A stretch of 64,000 nt of DNA from assembly GCF_000399685.1 (NCBI RefSeq), contig NZ_KB976987.1:1565184-1629183 (forward strand), in the 5' to 3' direction. The position numbers and the translations under genes were made by a program. Positions 46 through 59,981 of the stretch are shown in pieces. Position 1 is the first letter of the stretch, and each line of letters starts with the position of its first letter. The notes under the pieces were generated by a model. It saw only the letters and a list, made by a program, of their open reading frames with translations. It did no database searches and was not told where the DNA came from. Source of the DNA: Acinetobacter pittii ANC 4050 (lineage in GTDB: Bacteria > Pseudomonadota > Gammaproteobacteria > Pseudomonadales > Moraxellaceae).

Positions 46-309
46 TTATCCTTGATTAACTAAACTCTGTTTTGGCAATAATTTACAGCCACATGATAAT
101 GAATCATTTACACGTGCTGCGGATTTTCCCATAACAAGCATATTTGAATCTCCCGATACAATCGTAGAAACCGTTTTGTGTAACGGACAAGTTGCCTTAT
201 CTCCTACACAGGCAATTGCAATTCCATCAATTAAAAATGTACTGTTCCCTGAAATGACTTGCCCTCCACCAGTGGTTGGGCATCCAATCGTAATGTAAGG
301 GCTAGCCAT
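46..309 (-). CDS. PAAR-domain T6SS spike-tip protein
   Basis: PAAR proteins form the sharp cone on the VgrG spike and help load effectors. The 87-residue product starts MASPYITIGCPTTGGG and carries the repeated glycine-rich turns and paired His/Cys residues (CPLH, CGCK) expected of the zinc-binding PAAR fold. I chose the ATG at 307-309 because an AGGAG stands just upstream; longer starts run into tagN. It is the last gene of the T6SS run in this window, 16 bp after tagN, matching the position of the asaC/PAAR gene of Acinetobacter T6SS loci. It is a bare PAAR with no toxin extension, so it is probably the general-purpose tip. Confidence 0.85.
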   Translation of the reverse strand: MASPYITIGCPTTGGGQVISGNSTFLIDGIAIACVGDKATCPLHKTVSTIVSGDSNMLVMGKSAARVNDSLSCGCKLLPKQSLVNQG

Positions 310-42210: not shown

Positions 42211-42642
42211 ATGTTAAAAACTCAAAAAATCAACATCGTACAAGAATTTGATACACCTGTAGACAAAGTCTTTGCAACCTTAAGTGAGCATGAAAACCTA
42301 AGTAAACTTTTTGCACCTGCTAAAGTGACTCGTATTAGCAACGGAAAGGATGCGCGCAATGGTGTTGGTTCTGCTCGTAAAATGTCTATTCCACTCACCC
42401 CTTCATTTGTAGAAACAAATTTAGTCTACAAAGAAAATGAACTGATCGAGTATGCAATCACAAGCGGCATTAGCCCAATTAAAGCCCACCGTGGTGTCAT
42501 GAAATTTACTGACTTGGGAAATAATCGAAGTCGTTTAGATTACACCATTAGCTTTAAAGGCCGCGTGCCCTTTATTGGTCTTATTATCAAAAAAGCTTTA
42601 GAAAATGGCGTGAGCCGTGGACTTAAAAAACTTAAGTTTTAA
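42211..42642 (+). CDS. SRPBCC-family (polyketide cyclase-like) protein
   Basis: 143 residues with the START/Bet v1-like helix-grip pattern: QEFDTPVDKVFATLSEHENLSKLF at the N-terminus, TRISNGKDARNGVGSARKM, and a long C-terminal helix (IIKKALENGVSRGLKKL). Such proteins bind hydrophobic ligands. AGAGGAAATAAG precedes the ATG, and a strong terminator follows. It is a one-gene unit; the neighbouring TetR gene faces it and may not be related. Confidence 0.8.
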   Translation: MLKTQKINIVQEFDTPVDKVFATLSEHENLSKLFAPAKVTRISNGKDARNGVGSARKMSIPLTPSFVETNLVYKENELIEYAITSGISPIKAHRGVMKFTDLGNNRSRLDYTISFKGRVPFIGLIIKKALENGVSRGLKKLKF

Positions 42643-42658
42643 TCGCCGCATCTAAAAG

Positions 42659-42684
42659 AAAAAGCCCAGTTACGGGCTTTTTTT
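42659..42684 (+). terminator. Rho-independent terminator of the SRPBCC gene
   Basis: AAAGCCC-AGTTAC-GGGCTTTTTTT: seven-pair stem followed by a U-run. It also lies just past the 3' end of the convergent TetR gene. Confidence 0.9.
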
Positions 42685-42689
42685 AAGAT

Positions 42690-43256
42690 TTAAGTTGAAT
42701 GCTCAGATAGCATAAATAAAAAGTAATCTAGTAATTTATCCCGTTCATCTACGCTATTGGCACTTAATAACTGAACCATTGCTCCATCAATTGCAAATAG
42801 AAACATGTGTGCGTCTTTTATTGAAGCGCTAGTTTTGACAGTAAGAAGTAGCTTATAAATCTCATTTATAAACCAGTTTCTATAATCAATAACCACCCGA
42901 TAAGCCGTTGCATAGCACTTTTCAATTTCAAAAATTGCTTTAAATGGTAAACGGTAAAACCCTTCTAAATTGGCATGTAAAAAGTAAATTTGCTTGAGTT
43001 TATCGAACACCATAAGTTCACTGTATGAATTGATAATTGAAAGGACTTTTACTTTGAGCGCATCCGTTTGAAAGGTTAAACACATCTCGATGAGTCGTGC
43101 TTTTGAATGAAAGATGTTATAGAAAGTCGCTTTAGGAATTTTGGCCTCAGCAATAATTCGGTCAACCCCCACCGTGTTAAATCCATCTTGAGTAAATAAA
43201 TCTTTTGCCGTGTGCAGCACTCGTAGTGCTCTAAATGAAGGTTCTAAATTTTTCAT
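42690..43256 (-). CDS. TetR-family regulator (copy 1 of a paralogous pair)
   Basis: 188 residues. The HTH is LHTAKDLFTQDGFNTVGVDRIIAEAKIPKATFYNIFHSK; the ligand domain carries IYFLHANLEGFYRLPFKAIFEIEK and VVIDYRNWFINEIYKLLLTVK. A second gene at 58971-59525 encodes a clear paralogue, identical over long stretches of these same motifs. In both places the upstream DNA has matching hairpins and then a conserved structured element pointing away. The pair GAGATAG / CTATCTC at 43294-43300 and 43371-43377 is a candidate operator or stem. The ligand is unknown. Confidence 0.88.
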   Translation of the reverse strand: MKNLEPSFRALRVLHTAKDLFTQDGFNTVGVDRIIAEAKIPKATFYNIFHSKARLIEMCLTFQTDALKVKVLSIINSYSELMVFDKLKQIYFLHANLEGFYRLPFKAIFEIEKCYATAYRVVIDYRNWFINEIYKLLLTVKTSASIKDAHMFLFAIDGAMVQLLSANSVDERDKLLDYFLFMLSEHST

Positions 43257-43486
43257 ATATACCGCTTAAAATAATTTTTTGTTGTATCTAAAAGAGATAG
43301 AAATGCCGTCACTCTTAAAATGAGTGCTAAAAACAGGCACGCAAAAACGACACAATAAAGTTGTGCTCGCCTATCTCGGGTTTATTGTTGCTATGATTTT
43401 TGAGTCGTAATGATCTAAGGTTGTAGAAAACTTAGAGTCGATTAAACCAATTTATAGACTGTTTAAACGGTATAAATAGAGAGATT

Positions 43487-43753
43487 TTGGCAAAGGCCAA
43501 TAAATGAGAAGAATTAGTACGCATAGCGGACTCCTAGATGAAATAGAAGTTCTACCTAATCACTGTCAAATGATTATGGTGGCAGAACGAAGGCGGGTTG
43601 ACAGACCAGTCATCTAGGAACTGGCACGCACAAGGCGTCCCTCCTCCGTCCTACCGCTACGAAGGGGGACGAACGAGTTCAACACCAAAAAATTACTTTT
43701 TTGATGTTCTAGATGATAGCGGCCTGTCAAAGCCGACTGGCGATGTAGGCCAG
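43487..43753 (+). ncRNA. Structured RNA-like element, copy 1
   Basis: A multi-stem element that recurs at 59732-59981. In order: hairpin TTGGC/GCCAA (43487-43500); an ACTCC-containing stem; the conserved block ATGGTGGCAGAACGAAGG (43576-43593); a long-range stem TTGACAG (43598-43604) with CTGTCAA (43724-43730), extended by GTCATCTAG (43609-43617) with CTAGATGAT (43709-43717); hairpin CGTCCC/GGGACG (43636-43671); an A/U hairpin (43683-43706); and a terminal CTGGC/GCCAG hairpin (43737-43753). The other copy keeps the pairing with different bases, which argues for a real RNA. No Rfam family was recognised. A 73-codon open frame overlaps it and is probably incidental. Confidence 0.65.
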
Positions 43754-43940
43754 CACGCAAAGGATAGTATTCGCTCTTGTTGGCGTCAAGCGTGGGAAAT
43801 GACAATCGTATTAAAGTAGAGCGGTTGGAGTTTTGAGAAAAATTTAAGTAAATGGACAATCGAATAAATACTAATATAGAAAACCAACATCTTACCTAGA
43901 TAAAAAACTAGTCGATTTAATTTTTATAAATAATTAGATT

Positions 43941-43968
43941 TTGTTCTTGAAAAATAAACCATTATCCT
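43941..43968 (+). promoter_or_regulatory. Candidate promoter for the repeat RNA / RT transcript
   Basis: TTGTTC (43941-43946), a 16-base spacer and TATCCT (43963-43968) resemble a sigma-70 promoter. Transcription would start around 43975, just before the first long direct repeat. The match is moderate and the call is based on position. Confidence 0.35.
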
Positions 43969-44000
43969 CATTATTGTTAGAACGTAGCTTCCAATTTTCA

Positions 44001-44127
44001 TCTTTGCGAGTTGCGCTGCACGTATCCAAGCGGCAATGTGATACCACGGTCACTAGTTGGTCATGGGTATCTGGCGTGTCTCTGGCCTATTCATTCGCGC
44101 ATGACGTGGTGAGTCGGGATGAGATTC
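44001..44127 (+). repeat. Long direct repeat, copy 1 (127 bp)
   Basis: Starts TCTTTGCGAGTTGCGCTGCA and ends GTCGGGATGAGATTC. It equals copy 2 (44397-44523) except for three adjacent bases, ATG at 44036-44038 here. The start-to-start distance is 396 bp. No third copy was noticed in the window. Confidence 0.97.
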
Positions 44128-44318
44128 TTAGTTTGGGCCCGTCTTCTTCCCTAGGTAATGTCGGGAAGGCGGGTAAAGAGCGTGTGGGGCAGCCCATGAG
44201 CACGGATGGGGAAGCGCGTAAGTCGTCGCCTCACTCTGGCTATGTTTTCGGATGGCTTTTATACGGTCTTTGTACCTTATTAAGTCATTTATACATCTGT
44301 TATTGGGAGGATTTTGAT

Positions 44319-44534
44319 TTGAGTGAACTAAATAACTTAATATTGCGTCTCATTCTCATTTGCTCGGCGGCGGCTGCACGGTTTACGGTTTGCATCTCTT
44401 TGCGAGTTGCGCTGCACGTATCCAAGCGGCATACTGATACCACGGTCACTAGTTGGTCATGGGTATCTGGCGTGTCTCTGGCCTATTCATTCGCGCATGA
44501 CGTGGTGAGTCGGGATGAGATTCCACCTCTTTAA
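44319..44534 (+). CDS. Possible small ORF spanning the spacer and repeat 2 (TTG start)
   Basis: GGAGG at 44306-44310 stands eight bases before TTG at 44319, giving a 71-residue product that starts SELNNLILRLILICSAAAAR after the initiator and ends DEIPPL, nine bases past the second repeat. The N-terminal third is hydrophobic. The frame is continuous with the stop-free frame across the whole 396-nt repeat unit. It may be a real small protein, the genomic trace of a repeat-cDNA reading frame, or chance. It is reported because of the ribosome-binding site and the frame continuity. Confidence 0.35.
   Translation: MSELNNLILRLILICSAAAARFTVCISLRVALHVSKRHTDTTVTSWSWVSGVSLAYSFAHDVVSRDEIPPL
44397..44523 (+). 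repeat. Long direct repeat, copy 2 (127 bp)
   Basis: Second copy of the 44001-44127 repeat, identical except for TAC at 44432-44434 in place of ATG. It ends 49 bp before the RT start codon. Because the offset is 396 (132 codons), both copies are in the same reading frame. Confidence 0.97.
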
Positions 44535-44572
44535 CGCAAACCTAGGGTTAGACATTTGCGGCAAGAATTACG

Positions 44573-45793
44573 ATGACAAAAAAAGTAAAAACTGCATTAG
44601 TTCAGGTCGCGAGCCTTGCTAATCTTGAAGAAGCTTGGGACCATATTTGGAAAAATTCAAAAAAACAATCTAAAAGCTCATTGGATTTAAACAACATAAG
44701 CCTCAATGATTTTAATCACAATAAAAAACAGCTATTGAAAAAAATTTCAAAAAAGTTGTTAGATAGATCTTATGGATTTAGTGATCTCCATCCGTTTTTA
44801 GTTCCTAAAGCGAATGGTAAATATAGGTTAATTTGTGTACCGACTATTGAAGACCGTATAGTACAACGAGCCTTATTAAATGTATTGAACAATTATTATC
44901 ATAATCAACTTGATAATGGTATAAGCTATGGTTTTATCAGTAAAAAAACAGTTAAAGATGCGGCTAAGAAAGCCTGTGAACTTCGAAAGACGCATAATTG
45001 GGTTTATAAAACTGATATAACTGCATTTTTCGATAATGTAGACCGTGAAAAACTTAAGGAAAAAGTTAAATCTTTAGTTAAACATCGCTCCCTCCATCCT
45101 CTATTATTTTCGATAATAAATCGTGAAGTACGAATTACTTCAAATTCTCAAGGATCAAGGATTAAAAAACTTGGAATTAGAAGAGGACATGGTGTCCGTC
45201 AAGGAATGCCTTTGTCTCCTTTTTTTGCAAATTTATTTTTAGGAACTTTTGATAATGAAATTAAAGCTACTGGTTTTAGGGCTGTAAGATATGCCGATGA
45301 TTTAATTTTCTTTGCTAAGAGTAAGCATGAATGTGAACAAATTGACAGTTTTTGCCGTACATCTTTAAAAAAATTAGATTTAGATATTCCCCTACTTGGT
45401 GAATTAAATTCAAAGACAGTAATTTACAACCCAAACGAAACAGTTGAGTTCTTGGGATTAGGTTTAAGTAAGAAAAAATGTAATGCTGACTATGAGCTTA
45501 TTTTGACAAATGAACAATTACAAATGATCCGTACGGAATTACTACAATTAGGCTCAATCAAACAACTACTGGATAGTAATATTAAGTTAGCTAATCTTGG
45601 GATTGCTATTGAATCACGTATATCTGGATATAAAGCTGCATACTCAGATTGTATTACTAACTATACTGAACTTGAAAACCACATGATTGATTTACATCAG
45701 AAAGTTCTCCATAGAATATACGGAGTTGGTGGTTTAAATATTAACTTAAGTTCACTTTCTAGTGAAAATAGAAAATTTCTTGGTTTAACTTAA
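44573..45793 (+). CDS. Stand-alone reverse transcriptase, unknown-group / defence-type
   Basis: 406 residues. RT blocks in order: FLVPKANGKYRLICVPT and EDRIVQRALLNVL (~76-105); SYGF; motif with first catalytic aspartate KTDITAFFDNV (D148); RRGHGVRQGMPLSPFFANLFL (~203-223); the catalytic YADD at 240-243; and a thumb-like helical tail ending RKFLGLT. It lacks the retron NAxxH and VTG motifs, and no maturase-X or HNH domain follows, so it is neither a clear retron nor a complete intron protein. Its layout fits the unknown-group RTs, several of which are anti-phage (DRT) systems with an upstream non-coding RNA. The locus lies between ordinary chromosomal genes and has no transposase. Exact group unassigned. 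Confidence 0.88.
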   Translation: MTKKVKTALVQVASLANLEEAWDHIWKNSKKQSKSSLDLNNISLNDFNHNKKQLLKKISKKLLDRSYGFSDLHPFLVPKANGKYRLICVPTIEDRIVQRALLNVLNNYYHNQLDNGISYGFISKKTVKDAAKKACELRKTHNWVYKTDITAFFDNVDREKLKEKVKSLVKHRSLHPLLFSIINREVRITSNSQGSRIKKLGIRRGHGVRQGMPLSPFFANLFLGTFDNEIKATGFRAVRYADDLIFFAKSKHECEQIDSFCRTSLKKLDLDIPLLGELNSKTVIYNPNETVEFLGLGLSKKKCNADYELILTNEQLQMIRTELLQLGSIKQLLDSNIKLANLGIAIESRISGYKAAYSDCITNYTELENHMIDLHQKVLHRIYGVGGLNINLSSLSSENRKFLGLT

Positions 45794-45821
45794 TCTACTC
45801 AACTTCCTTAGAAAGGCTTAA

Positions 45822-47042
45822 TCAATCCATCAACTTTTTACGGCGATACAACCCACAATTTCCAGAAAATAACGCTGCCAACAAACAAGTAATAATGGCA
45901 TAAGTCGCAACATTCATTCCAAATAGCTCAATGGCTAAAATAATAGAGGTTAACGGCGCCTTACTTGCCCCTGAAAACAGACTCACCAAACCTAAGCCTG
46001 CAAGCAATGAAATTGGTAAGTTTAAAATTGCCCCTAAAGCATTCCCTAATGTCGCCCCTACATAGAATAACGGCGTAATTTCCCCACCTTTAAAACCTGA
46101 ACCTAAAGTGATGGCGGTAAAAACGGTCTTATTAAAAAAGTCGTAATACTCAATCGGTACATAAAAAGATGAAATGATTTTATCTGTACCCAAACCGTTG
46201 TATTGCTGATGTGCGGTGAATAAAGTAAGTAGCATAATGACAATACCGCCGACCATGGTTCTTAAAGGCAAATAGCGAATATATTTATAAAAGACGTCAC
46301 TGGCAAAATGAATGGCGGCAATAAAGAAACGTGCAGCTAAACCAAAAATTAGTCCCGCCACAATTAAACTCATGAGTGTGCCAAAATGAATCGCTGGAAA
46401 CTCACTAATCACATAAAAAATATGCGGATGAACAATATCGAATAGTTCAGGAATGGTCGAAGCAATAAGCGCCGACACAAAACACGGGAAAATGGCTGAA
46501 TATCTTAAATTACCTAAAGCTGTAATTTCTAAACCATAGATCGCGCCCGCCAAAGGCAAGCCAAACACCCCTGCAAAGCCAGCACCAATACTGGCGATTA
46601 AACAAATTTTTCGGTTATCTTCCGAGATTTTTAATATATGGCTCAGGTGGTCAATTAATGCACCCGAAAGCTGAACTGCTGGCGCCTCACGTCCTGCTGA
46701 ACCACCAAACAACTGCGTTAAAATTGAGGTAATAAAAATGATAGGGCTCATTCGTTTTGGAATAAACGACTTCGGCTGATGAATTTCATCAATCAGTAAA
46801 TGGGTTCCCCGTTCAATCGGCGATCCATATTTTTTAATGAGGTAACCAATACCAAAACCCACAAAAGGCAAAAAGTAGATGAGCCAGTGATGCAGACTTC
46901 GGACTTTGTTTGAAATATCAAAGGCAACAAAAATTAAGGTCGAGGCTAGCCCTGCTACGACTCCAATCACAATCGAAATGACGAGCCAATAGACACTGTA
47001 TTTTAGAATTTGATCATATTCAGATGAAGGTAGAATTTTCAT
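45822..47042 (-). CDS. ClC-family chloride/anion channel or antiporter
   Basis: 406 residues with about ten membrane helices. The selectivity/gating motif is GGSAGREAPAVQLSG, with the gating glutamate present, and the later anion-binding region is LGSGFKGGEITPLFYVGATLGN. ClC proteins move chloride, or fluoride in one clade, across the inner membrane; length and motifs do not decide between channel and exchanger here. It faces the RT gene, 28 bp from its stop. Confidence 0.9.
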   Translation of the reverse strand: MKILPSSEYDQILKYSVYWLVISIVIGVVAGLASTLIFVAFDISNKVRSLHHWLIYFLPFVGFGIGYLIKKYGSPIERGTHLLIDEIHQPKSFIPKRMSPIIFITSILTQLFGGSAGREAPAVQLSGALIDHLSHILKISEDNRKICLIASIGAGFAGVFGLPLAGAIYGLEITALGNLRYSAIFPCFVSALIASTIPELFDIVHPHIFYVISEFPAIHFGTLMSLIVAGLIFGLAARFFIAAIHFASDVFYKYIRYLPLRTMVGGIVIMLLTLFTAHQQYNGLGTDKIISSFYVPIEYYDFFNKTVFTAITLGSGFKGGEITPLFYVGATLGNALGAILNLPISLLAGLGLVSLFSGASKAPLTSIILAIELFGMNVATYAIITCLLAALFSGNCGLYRRKKLMD

Positions 47043-47346
47043 TCGCTTTCTTCAATTCGCCTTTGAGTGGATGCCAAATTCTCAAATTATTTTTATGCTG
47101 CCAGTTCATTAAGTGAGAAATGCTTAAACTGGGCTAAAAATTAAAGCCCGCATATGCGAGCTTTCAATACAGTGATTAATTTTTGGTATCACTAAACTGT
47201 GACAAATATCTCATAATTGGCGCTATTTTTCAAGTTGAAAATAGTTAACGAGTACTGTGAAAAACAATTAACTAAGTGAATAAATAAGCATTGGATTTGA
47301 CCACATTAAAGTCACGCTCAATTAGGCCAAATCTCTTATTTAAATC
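47043..47346. other. Intergenic region between the ClC gene and the biotin carboxylase gene
   Basis: About 300 bp. It must carry the ClC promoter (minus strand). An inverted repeat AAAGCccGCATATGCgaGCTTT (47144-47165) could end transcripts from the 5-oxoproline cluster, although its U-run is weak. Nothing else is evident. Confidence 0.4.
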
Positions 47347-49068
47347 TCAATCAATGCTAGCAATCACAGTTTCTGCATGACAGGTCGCGCCTTTCTCCGC
47401 ACTAAGCTGAATAACACCACTGCGATGCGCCAGTACCTGCACTTCCATTTTCATAGCTTCCATAATGGCAACCACTTGGCCTTCGGTGACTTGCTCACCA
47501 TTTTCGACTTTCCAAGTGCTAATCACACCATTAATTGGGGCAAGTAAATGCTCAGCACTCACTTCTGGTTCAGCGGTTTGGGCTTGAACTGCGGTTGCTG
47601 GGCCTTGTGCAAACATACCCGCAGGTAAACCTAAACGGTGTAACTTGCCATCAATTTCAATATAGCTCAGCAACATCGGTTGTTGATGATTTGGAATGCC
47701 CCGTTTAGTTGGCTTTAACTCTTGTTTAAAGTCGTTTTCGATCCAGCGTGTATGGACATTAAATTCATCGGTAAAGTCAGGTTCATTAAGTACTGCACGG
47801 TGGAAATCTAAAACCGAAGCTACACCTTCAATTTTAAATTGCTTTAATGCACGTTTGGCGCGAGCAATTGCAACTTCACGGGTTGGACCAGTCACAATCA
47901 GTTTTGCCATGAGTGAGTCAAAGTGGCTCGACACTAAAGAGCCAGTACGCACGCCTGTATCCACTCGTACACCATGACCAAACGGTGCCTCGAATAAGCT
48001 CAACACACCAAACGCAGGAATAAAACCACGTGCGGGGTCTTCGGCATTAATACGAAACTCAATCGCATGACCTTGCGCTTTTGGGGTTTCTTTAATAGAA
48101 AGTTCATGGCCTTGTGCCACGCGAATTTGCTCAACCACCAAATCGACTTTTGAGGTTTCTTCAGTTACTGGGTGCTCAACTTGCAAACGGGTGTTTACTT
48201 CTAAAAATGAAAGCTTGCCGTCGCGACTCAGTAAGTATTCAACTGTACCCGCTCCCACATAGTTTGCGGCCTGACAAATATTTTTTGCCGAGGTTAAAAT
48301 TTGCCGGTAAATCTCATCGCTAATAAATGGCGCTGGTGCTTCTTCGACTAACTTTTGGTTACGGCGTTGCAACGAACAATCGCGTGTACCAAGCACCACA
48401 ATGTTTCCATGCTGATCGGCAATCACTTGCGCTTCTACATGGCGCGGTTTATCGAGATATTGCTCGACAAAACATTCACCTCGACCAAAGGCAGCTTTTG
48501 CTTCTCGTACTGCCGACTCATAAAGCTCTTTGACTTCTTCGAGTTTCCACGCAACTTTTAAGCCACGGCCACCGCCACCAAATGCCGCTTTAATGGCAAT
48601 GGGTAAACCAAACTGTTTAGCAAACGCTAAAGCTTCATCTGCATTGTTGAGTGGGTCTTGCGTACCTTGAACTAACGGTGCACCGACCGAAGCAGCAATT
48701 TTACGTGCTTCGATTTTATCGCCTAGTTTTTCTATGGCACTTGGAGATGGCCCGACCCATTTTAAACCTGCATCAATCACAGCTTGGGCAAACTCAGCCC
48801 GTTCAGATAAAAAGCCATAACCCGGATGCACCATCGTCGCTTTCGATTTCTTGGCAACTTCAATAATGGCAGGAATATTTAAATAGGTTTCACTGGCAGT
48901 TGCACCAGCCAAACCCCATGCTTCATCTGCAAGTTCGACATGCATGCTGCCGATGTCATCATCTGCATATAACGCGACTGATGAAATGCCCATATCACGG
49001 CAAGCATGAATAATACGAACGGCAATTTCACCACGGTTAGCAATCAATAATTTTTCTGTATTCATCAT
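47347..49068 (-). CDS. Biotin carboxylase with fused biotin-carrier domain
   Basis: 573 residues. Biotin carboxylase domain (1-450; KLLIANRGEIAVRIIHACRD, GGGGRGLKV, FLEVNTRLQVEHPVTEE) plus a C-terminal biotinyl domain with EAMKMEVQ. It has no carboxyltransferase domain of its own. It overlaps the PxpB-PxpC fusion gene by four bases (ATGA). PxpB/PxpC are homologous to the carboxyltransferase part of urea carboxylase, so the two adjacent proteins together reproduce the domain set of that enzyme. A role in 5-oxoproline metabolism is suggested by context; the acyl-CoA carboxylase alpha-subunit label usual for such proteins may be misleading. Confidence 0.85.
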   Translation of the reverse strand: MMNTEKLLIANRGEIAVRIIHACRDMGISSVALYADDDIGSMHVELADEAWGLAGATASETYLNIPAIIEVAKKSKATMVHPGYGFLSERAEFAQAVIDAGLKWVGPSPSAIEKLGDKIEARKIAASVGAPLVQGTQDPLNNADEALAFAKQFGLPIAIKAAFGGGGRGLKVAWKLEEVKELYESAVREAKAAFGRGECFVEQYLDKPRHVEAQVIADQHGNIVVLGTRDCSLQRRNQKLVEEAPAPFISDEIYRQILTSAKNICQAANYVGAGTVEYLLSRDGKLSFLEVNTRLQVEHPVTEETSKVDLVVEQIRVAQGHELSIKETPKAQGHAIEFRINAEDPARGFIPAFGVLSLFEAPFGHGVRVDTGVRTGSLVSSHFDSLMAKLIVTGPTREVAIARAKRALKQFKIEGVASVLDFHRAVLNEPDFTDEFNVHTRWIENDFKQELKPTKRGIPNHQQPMLLSYIEIDGKLHRLGLPAGMFAQGPATAVQAQTAEPEVSAEHLLAPINGVISTWKVENGEQVTEGQVVAIMEAMKMEVQVLAHRSGVIQLSAEKGATCHAETVIASID

Positions 49069-59731: not shown

Positions 59732-59981
59732 TTGGCGTTGAGAGCCAAGAAATAATGGATGTGCAAAGCCAACTCCTTTTTAATTGGAGTTCTGCCAGAC
59801 ATTAAAATTATGGTGGCAGAACGAAGGGGGTTCGCGGACTGGCCTTAAGACTCCAGCACACCCAAGGGTGTCCCCCTCCGTTCCACCATAGAGGGGGCAC
59901 GAGGGTGTACACACTAAAAGTATAAAACCTTTAATGCTCCTAAGGGACGGTCCGCGACGACCGACTGGCAATGTAGGCCAG
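59732..59981 (+). ncRNA. Structured RNA-like element, copy 2
   Basis: Same order of parts as copy 1: hairpin TTGGC/GCCAA (59732-59748); perfect hairpin AACTCC/GGAGTT (59771-59791); block ATGGTGGCAGAACGAAGG (59810-59827); long-range stem TCGCGGAC (59832-59839) with GTCCGCGA (59950-59957), extended by CCTTA/TAAGG; hairpin GTGtCCCCCTC/GAGGGGGCAC (59868-59900); terminal CTGGC/GCCAG (59965-59981). The long-range stem has an entirely different sequence from copy 1 but pairs as well. The rest of the 600-bp gap (59526-60195) shows only upstream elements shared with copy 1 and AT-rich DNA. Confidence 0.65.

Follow-up and report, generated by a model that had tools for sequence, protein, structure and literature searches.

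Long paired repeats and a stop-free repeat unit upstream of a separate clade of reverse transcriptases: a candidate tandem-cDNA system in Acinetobacter pittii

We analyzed a 64,000-nt stretch of the Acinetobacter pittii ANC 4050 chromosome (RefSeq GCF_000399685.1, contig NZ_KB976987.1, positions 1,565,184 to 1,629,183; hereafter the window). The genome (G000) consists of one 3.84-Mb contig. In this study, we focused on an intact reverse transcriptase (RT) gene in the window that is preceded by two direct repeats, R1 and R2. The repeats are 127 nt long and 98% identical (3 mismatches), and their spacing of 396 nt is a multiple of three. The unit of R1 plus spacer, joined head to tail, is open throughout in one sense frame. 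Related RTs, which form one clade, are preceded by pairs of the same geometry and different sequence. We propose that the RT copies the adjacent RNA, jumps from R1 to R2 and makes a tandem complementary DNA (cDNA) that would encode a repeated polypeptide for phage defence, a proposal to which we give somewhat better than even odds of being correct.

Results

The repeat pair in close relatives

The first-pass annotation, which was made from the letters of the window, described two almost identical direct repeats in a G+C-richer block upstream of the RT. Both features were found. The G+C content is 0.52 at 44000-44299 versus 0.31-0.33 within the RT gene, and the runner-up among direct repeats in 42500-47500 measures 25 nt (72% identity). 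The annotation also staked its case on close homologues carrying the repeats, and the pair is present at all seven loci of the close group, window included. Nearly the same RT was found in genomes named A. nosocomialis, A. lactucae and A. seifertii, which points to the calcoaceticus-baumannii complex for the window as well. Four further distinct genome loci (L005, L006, L007 and L010) carry an RT 95-99% identical to that of the window, and two plasmid loci (L002 and L003; a third plasmid record, NZ_CP029006, is left out of the count) carry one that is 72-73% identical. Four of these loci have an R1-to-R2 spacing of 396 nt, two have 399 nt and the remaining one has 395 nt. Plasmids and window share 82% identity in the block (581 nt) and 76% over a 1.9-kb stretch that takes in both block and RT gene.

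The RT family is rare. Among 175 Acinetobacter genomes, 12 carry an RT of the clade at E<=1e-50, two of them as a fragment or pseudogene only; the block was found in the same five genomes as the close RT, with one 22-nt match in a sixth. At strict E-values, an order-level sample of 390 genomes gave two new members, and no new member came from class-level (369 genomes) and phylum-level (349 genomes) samples or from 44 and 10 genomes of the families of those two. Among viral contigs, neither an RT closely related to that of the window nor a perfect match to a portion of the repeat turned up.

The repeat pair in distant relatives and control loci

RTs of the clade with 27-38% identity have upstream pairs of 118-152 nt, different in sequence, at eight further loci, that is, at most of the distant loci that can be judged. 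Repeat length and spacing, in nt, are 128 and 384 (L014), 123-125 and 378 (L026), 129-132 and 387 (L027), 149-151 and 423 (L015), 118-132 and 411 (L017), 152 and 411 (L030), 145 and 453 (L031), and 150 and 381 (L032). The RT of L027 has an N-terminal stop or truncation and is 31% identical over its piece. Within a pair the copies are 92-100% alike, and their differences are clustered and not confined to A. Two further loci are decayed: L048, a relative of L031 with a broken RT and a spacing of 452 nt, and L139, with repeats of the L014 type. L033, L140 and L141 stand outside the tally as contig ends or fragments. Two rearrangements were seen besides: L117 (3001-3766) represents the L026 locus, part of its RT gene being inverted either truly or through an assembly error, and on contig C9 of genome G085 (L141 and L142) a second clade RT copy is split by about 1.3 kb, an intact one being present in the same genome.

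As controls, we used 82 RT loci (L034-L052 and L055-L117), of which two, L048 and L117, are clade members, leaving 80. For none of the 80 did the top repeat (score at least 40, within 2 kb upstream or as far as the contig extends, some loci having little upstream sequence) form an upstream pair through which a frame is open. No comparable repeat was found at L126, a true UG17 locus. About ten of the 80 have upstream pairs that are presumably of the diversity-generating retroelement (DGR) kind.

A stop-free sense frame through the repeat unit

The first-pass annotation mentioned neither a stop-free frame through the unit nor concerted evolution of the repeats. In 14 of the 16 paired loci (378-453 nt), the spacing is divisible by three and the unit has an endless plus-strand frame. 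The exceptions are L006 (395 nt, with a 1-nt deletion) and L048, where the RT is also broken. In 14 of 14 cases, the endless frame and the RT gene share a strand; that the RNA has this strand is an assumption. Endless antisense frames, which would resemble the neo frame of DRT2, were seen only in the G+C-rich L032, and a design of that kind was rejected. After dinucleotide shuffling (4000 shuffles per unit), an endless plus-strand frame appeared at a frequency of 0.0003-0.011 for nine of ten units. The tenth, L032, reached 0.44, so that its frame is uninformative. In the genomic copy, the frame ends 8-55 nt past R2 (11 loci). Hydropathy peaks in the endless frame are 1.4-3.0 in all 11 loci (Kyte-Doolittle, 19 residues).

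Concerted evolution and selection

Sequence comparison indicates that the two repeats evolve in concert, one 3-nt site excepted. Over the first 119 nt, all nine R2 changes between the window and L010, and all eight between the window and L002, are mirrored in R1. The source of this concert may be recombination with cDNA, ordinary gene conversion or selection for matching. The escaping site is at repeat positions 36-38, which read ATG in R1 and TAC in R2 in the window, L006, L002 and L003, TTG and TAC in L010 and L007, and TAC in both copies in L005. Comparable clusters of differences lie at 112-114 in L015, at 80-82 (plus position 60) in L017 and at 60-62 in L030. The copies differ at two positions in L031 and at three in L032, not all adjacent; L002 has an extra difference at 123, and L014, L026 and L027 have none. 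The chance of three random mismatches falling together is P 0.0002-0.0016 (four loci). A role of the triplet as an R1-only stem or template boundary was considered and is not supported, since the triplet is not consistently paired. In L030 and L031, both repeats share GGC-NNN-CTACTGATTGCG followed by a TCGCA half-stem, and the NNN holds all R1/R2 differences of L030 and one of the two of L031.

The repeats of the window group have low dS and dN/dS of 0.68-1.67, and are therefore constrained at the nucleotide level. Between L030 and L031 the repeats have dN/dS of about 0.95. Between the window and L005, L010 and L002 (three of five pairs), dN/dS in the 3' spacer half is 0.11-0.31, and for the spacer of L014 and L026 it is 0.48. 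Judged from such ratios, there is real but uneven evidence of protein-level selection on the frame.

The reverse transcriptase

The RT carries R209-Q-G-M-P213, Y240-A-D-D243 and D148, invariant in an alignment of 14 RT rows; YADD and D148 were already noted in the first-pass annotation. RVT_1 is its sole Pfam match at E up to 1, and at this threshold no maturase or integrase domain was found, again as annotated. Beyond the generic RT model, the best UG model in PADLOC is UG17, with 136.6 bits over residues 28-307. The same model also ranks first among UG models for all six further clade RTs that were scanned (96-152 bits). We did not assign the RT to UG17/DRT10, since its 136.6 bits compare with 511 bits over the full model for L126. 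Membership in DRT2 was rejected likewise (51.9 bits on NCBIfam Drt2, cut-off 390). A place within a group II intron or retron clade would have told against the annotation, but by the models tried the RT stays below both cut-offs: the NCBIfam group II RT model TIGR04416 gave 178.7 bits (cut-off 300), and the best retron model, St85, gave 78.4 bits (cut-off 235), in a set that covers some retron types only. At the Rfam gathering score, no intron or retron RNA was recognised in the window.

An AlphaFold2 model of the RT (13 rows, pLDDT 88) is closest to the G2L4 RT (9d4s, Z 31.8, 4.2 A over 378 residues), followed by the GsI-IIC RT (6ar1, Z 30.4, 4.7 A over 356 residues), a DGR RT (Z 29.1), DRT9 (22.2) and DRT2 (21.5). 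The RT is thus like G2L4 and GsI-IIC in fold, but it is under the TIGR04416 cut-off and no intron RNA was found in the window. A quick tree built from 66 RTs places the 14 clade members in one group (SH-aLRT 99), with the single UG17 row adjoining it on a long branch of uncertain position. The RT thus belongs to a clade of its own.

A DGR was rejected as well. An RT near a direct-repeat pair of about 100 nt is common to both designs. However, the window pair differs at three adjacent bases (A/T, T/A, G/C) and is otherwise identical, so that the differences are not mainly at template A, and the DGR-like pairs at control viral RTs behave differently: they are 81-89% alike, with spacings of 205-536 nt that are never a multiple of three, and have no open frame.

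Layout of the locus and its neighbours

The features of the locus are collected in Table 1. Two promoter-like sites were found in 43800-44700 where 2.3 are expected by chance, so that the site listed is a weak candidate. In a scan of the whole window, the repeat block had no Rfam match at the gathering score.

Table 1. Features of the repeat block and the RT gene (window positions)
Feature	Position	Strand	Remark
Promoter-like site TTGAAA-16-CATTAT	43947..43974	+	Candidate RNA start just 5' of R1
Repeat R1, 5' copy	44001..44127	+	Proposed template end and cDNA jump point
396-nt repeat unit (R1 + spacer)	44001..44396	+	Sense frame stop-free if joined head to tail
R1 copy-specific triplet ATG (TAC in R2)	44036..44038	+	Sole R1/R2 difference
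Spacer	44128..44396	+	5' half conserved; open frame of 3' half encodes hydrophobic stretches
ATG in the endless frame	44196..44198	+	Candidate start codon; in 7/7 close loci
Repeat R2, 3' copy	44397..44523	+	Proposed landing site of the cDNA 3' end
R2 copy-specific triplet TAC	44432..44434	+	
Genomic stop codon of the frame	44532..44534	+	8 nt past R2
Short hairpin CGCAAA...TTTGCG	44535..44560	+	Candidate RNA 3' element; z -0.2 vs shuffles, not more stable
Reverse transcriptase, 406 aa	44573..45793	+	Open reading frame (ORF), profile scans, alignment, predicted structure
YADD catalytic motif, residues 240-243	45290..45301	+	

The slot that holds the system has a TetR-type gene (minus strand, Pfam scan) with a C4 antisense RNA (43575-43661, minus strand, upstream of the repeat block) on one side and a ClC-type channel gene (minus strand, ORF read by eye) on the other. 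A check for SLATT genes in the window found other Pfam families in the two left neighbours, and the right one was judged ClC by its ORF. In G067, a genome of the same species in which no RT of the group was found, the slot has about 1.27 kb of non-matching DNA, and Sel1-type repeat genes (ORFs read by eye) occupy it in the A. baumannii record L004. The slot is therefore variable. On the plasmids, a hypothetical gene lies directly 3' of the RT (L002 7927-8646, L003 7927-8658) where the window has the ClC-type gene.

The block of TetR gene and C4 RNA (window 42700-43820) has 16 further dispersed matches in G067, about ten of which are at least 0.9 kb long with 65-81% identity, and a second C4 antisense RNA match lies in the window at 59809-59893 (minus strand, 74.2 bits). 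C4-like small RNAs and a TetR (TTTR) family are already described for A. baumannii in the available text of two reports (PMC5320573, PMC9802203). At L016, L026 and L117, which have other repeat types, the RT is also near a similar-looking TetR gene. This suggests an integration neighbourhood shared by these loci and the window.

Discussion

Here we describe a two-part arrangement that we interpret as an RT system: a putative template RNA of about 600 nt (R1, spacer, R2 and a small flank) and the RT encoded directly behind it. We suppose that the RNA is transcribed from before R1 and that the RT binds it, begins in or past R2 and then copies the spacer and R1. The cDNA end made on R1 would re-anneal to R2, so that each round would add one 396-nt unit of repeat and spacer. 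Since the unit is a multiple of three with an open sense frame throughout, the double-stranded tandem product would carry a gene without a stop. A polypeptide of repeated units with hydrophobic stretches could be translated from its transcript and poison the cell or stop its growth, as in abortive phage defence. The single genomic copy would not yield the polymer, because a stop lies just past R2. Strand transfer through long repeats would be comparable to that at retroviral R regions. That the RT uses the upstream block as a template and switches between the repeats was already suggested by the first-pass annotation. The suggestion gains from the conservation of the block, the concert of the copies and the stop-free frame, and has to be qualified for the loci, described below, that have one copy or none.

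Known RT systems provide partial precedents. In the available text on DRT2, the cDNA units are 111-129 nt, all divisible by three, with 3-nt ACA homology and a stop-free frame, and the product stops growth (PMC12039810). The neo transcript is of the strand opposite to the non-coding RNA (ncRNA) (PMC11100668), the product is rich in hydrophobic codons and a promoter is formed at the junction (PMC12039810, PMC11100668). Our system is like DRT2, as far as these texts describe it, in having an RT with an adjacent RNA, a unit divisible by three, a stop-free frame and a predicted, often hydrophobic product. Unlike DRT2, it has units of 378-453 nt and repeats of 118-152 nt, the frame is sense to the RNA (on the strand assumed above), and the length of the repeats suggests that the junction makes no promoter. 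DRT10 has an A-B-A' ncRNA, in which A spans 2-4 nt across three E. coli systems and the unit is 9 nt in Eco3; the ncRNA is 137 nt long, no repeats were detected with a 20-nt B, and there is a SLATT protein, according to the available part of the report (PMC12632851). The same part describes cDNA made on the 5' copy that re-anneals to the 3' copy, in a telomerase-like addition of repeats (PMC12632851). Our sequence pattern follows this A-B-A' logic at a far larger scale, the repeats being tens of times longer than the homologies given in these texts for DRT2 and DRT10. The system seems to belong with RTs that turn a neighbouring RNA into tandem cDNA, as a member of neither DRT2 nor DRT10. No described RT of this design was found in the literature searched, the coverage of which was incomplete, so that novelty is provisional.

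Several observations weigh against the tandem-cDNA mechanism. L013, L016 and L029 have a single repeat copy, one repeat and the spacer being missing relative to L015 or L030, and the L015 spacer was not found in their genomes by a search that had no positive control and a query unsuitable for the genome of L029. These loci may reflect recombination losses or assembly collapses, or indicate that the pair is not essential. The Acetobacter loci L024 and L025 have no repeat pair, and none was found within 1.5 kb upstream of L142, part of the interrupted second RT copy in G085. The tandem-cDNA mechanism also leaves the copy-specific triplet unexplained. Hydropathy peaks beat residue shuffles (P<0.05) in just five of ten units (L014, L015, L026, L027 and L032), and another frame peaks higher in five of ten (L002, L017, L027, L030 and L031). 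In the 3' spacer half, dN/dS rises to 0.45 (L005-L002) and 0.80 (L010-L002). The repeats of L014, L026 and L027 have dN/dS of 0.32-0.65, so that nucleotide-only constraint on the repeats is limited to the window group. The hairpin 3' of R2 is weak in most loci (z +1.2 to -2.4). In a five-row alignment fold, two-sided changes occur in 8 of 184 predicted pairs and the covariation term is unfavourable (+1.76), so that an RNA fold is not established. The defence context is thin, as prophage-like neighbours were found only at L031 (phage-structural-looking genes) and L032 (a terminase-like gene and methylases), both on viral contigs and read by eye from their ORFs.

Other explanations must be considered. 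It is possible that tandem cDNA is made from the repeats but acts as DNA, whether as signal, decoy or toxic repeat sequence (reported or proposed for DRT9 and DRT10), the frame being incidental or serving a one-unit peptide. The nucleotide-level constraint on the window-group repeats fits this idea, as does DRT10, for whose tandem-repeat cDNA the available text describes no encoded product (PMC12632851). It is, however, at odds with the endless frame in most paired loci and its rarity among shuffled units, and we consider it unlikely. A similarly low probability is given to an ordinary small-protein gene with duplicated ends, in which R1 and R2 are both translated and kept alike by gene conversion and the RT either just lies nearby or has a different template. 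Such a gene would likewise predict a spacing divisible by three and an open frame. Ten of 11 loci have some start codon (ATG first in two, otherwise TTG or GTG) ahead of R1 or among its first 45 nt, and the dN/dS of the L014, L026 and L027 repeats also fits such a gene. On the other hand, neither the start codon nor its position is common to the loci (L026 has a stop immediately 5' of R1, and L032 has no start codon before +229), the window-group repeats show low dS and the dN/dS given above, and the geometry is kept while the repeat sequence changes between lineages. Because of the dN/dS of the L014 group and the uneven hydropathy, we give less weight to the endless gene and more to this ordinary gene than we otherwise would.

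The repeats might instead be a structured RT-binding or regulatory RNA in duplicate, offering two docking sites or an R1 decoy for R2, with no template jump. The whole block folds with z of -0.9 to -5.2 (12 loci, 30 shuffles each), and the 3' stem of the repeat shows two-sided pair changes (A-U to C-G and C-G to G-U), though in two rows G-G disrupts two adjoining pairs. The single-copy loci would also be natural for such an RNA. It would not require a spacing divisible by three or a frame open across both copies, and the concert of the copies would need a separate cause; we regard it as improbable, more so than the two preceding explanations. A chance duplication or an assembly error unrelated to the RT, for which only the single-copy loci speak, is hardly credible given that the same arrangement occurs in several RT lineages with different repeat sequences and that block and close RT occur in the same Acinetobacter genomes. 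The tandem-cDNA mechanism is thus the reading we prefer, and phage defence is probably the use of the system, as far as sequence can tell.

A wider form of this reading, to which we give a shade less than an even chance, is that a separate RT clade assembles a gene absent from the genome. Repeats of 118-152 nt would serve strand transfer, an endless sense ORF would yield a polymeric and often membrane-type toxin only when the RT runs, and a conserved 3-nt mark would distinguish the copies. If this is true, gene assembly by iterative reverse transcription would extend beyond DRT2 to another clade, template design and coding strand. It would also represent a natural route to tandem DNA with units of several hundred nt, which may be useful for DNA writing. 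Upstream paired repeats with a spacing divisible by three and a frame open through both would then be a search signature for further systems among unclassified RTs.

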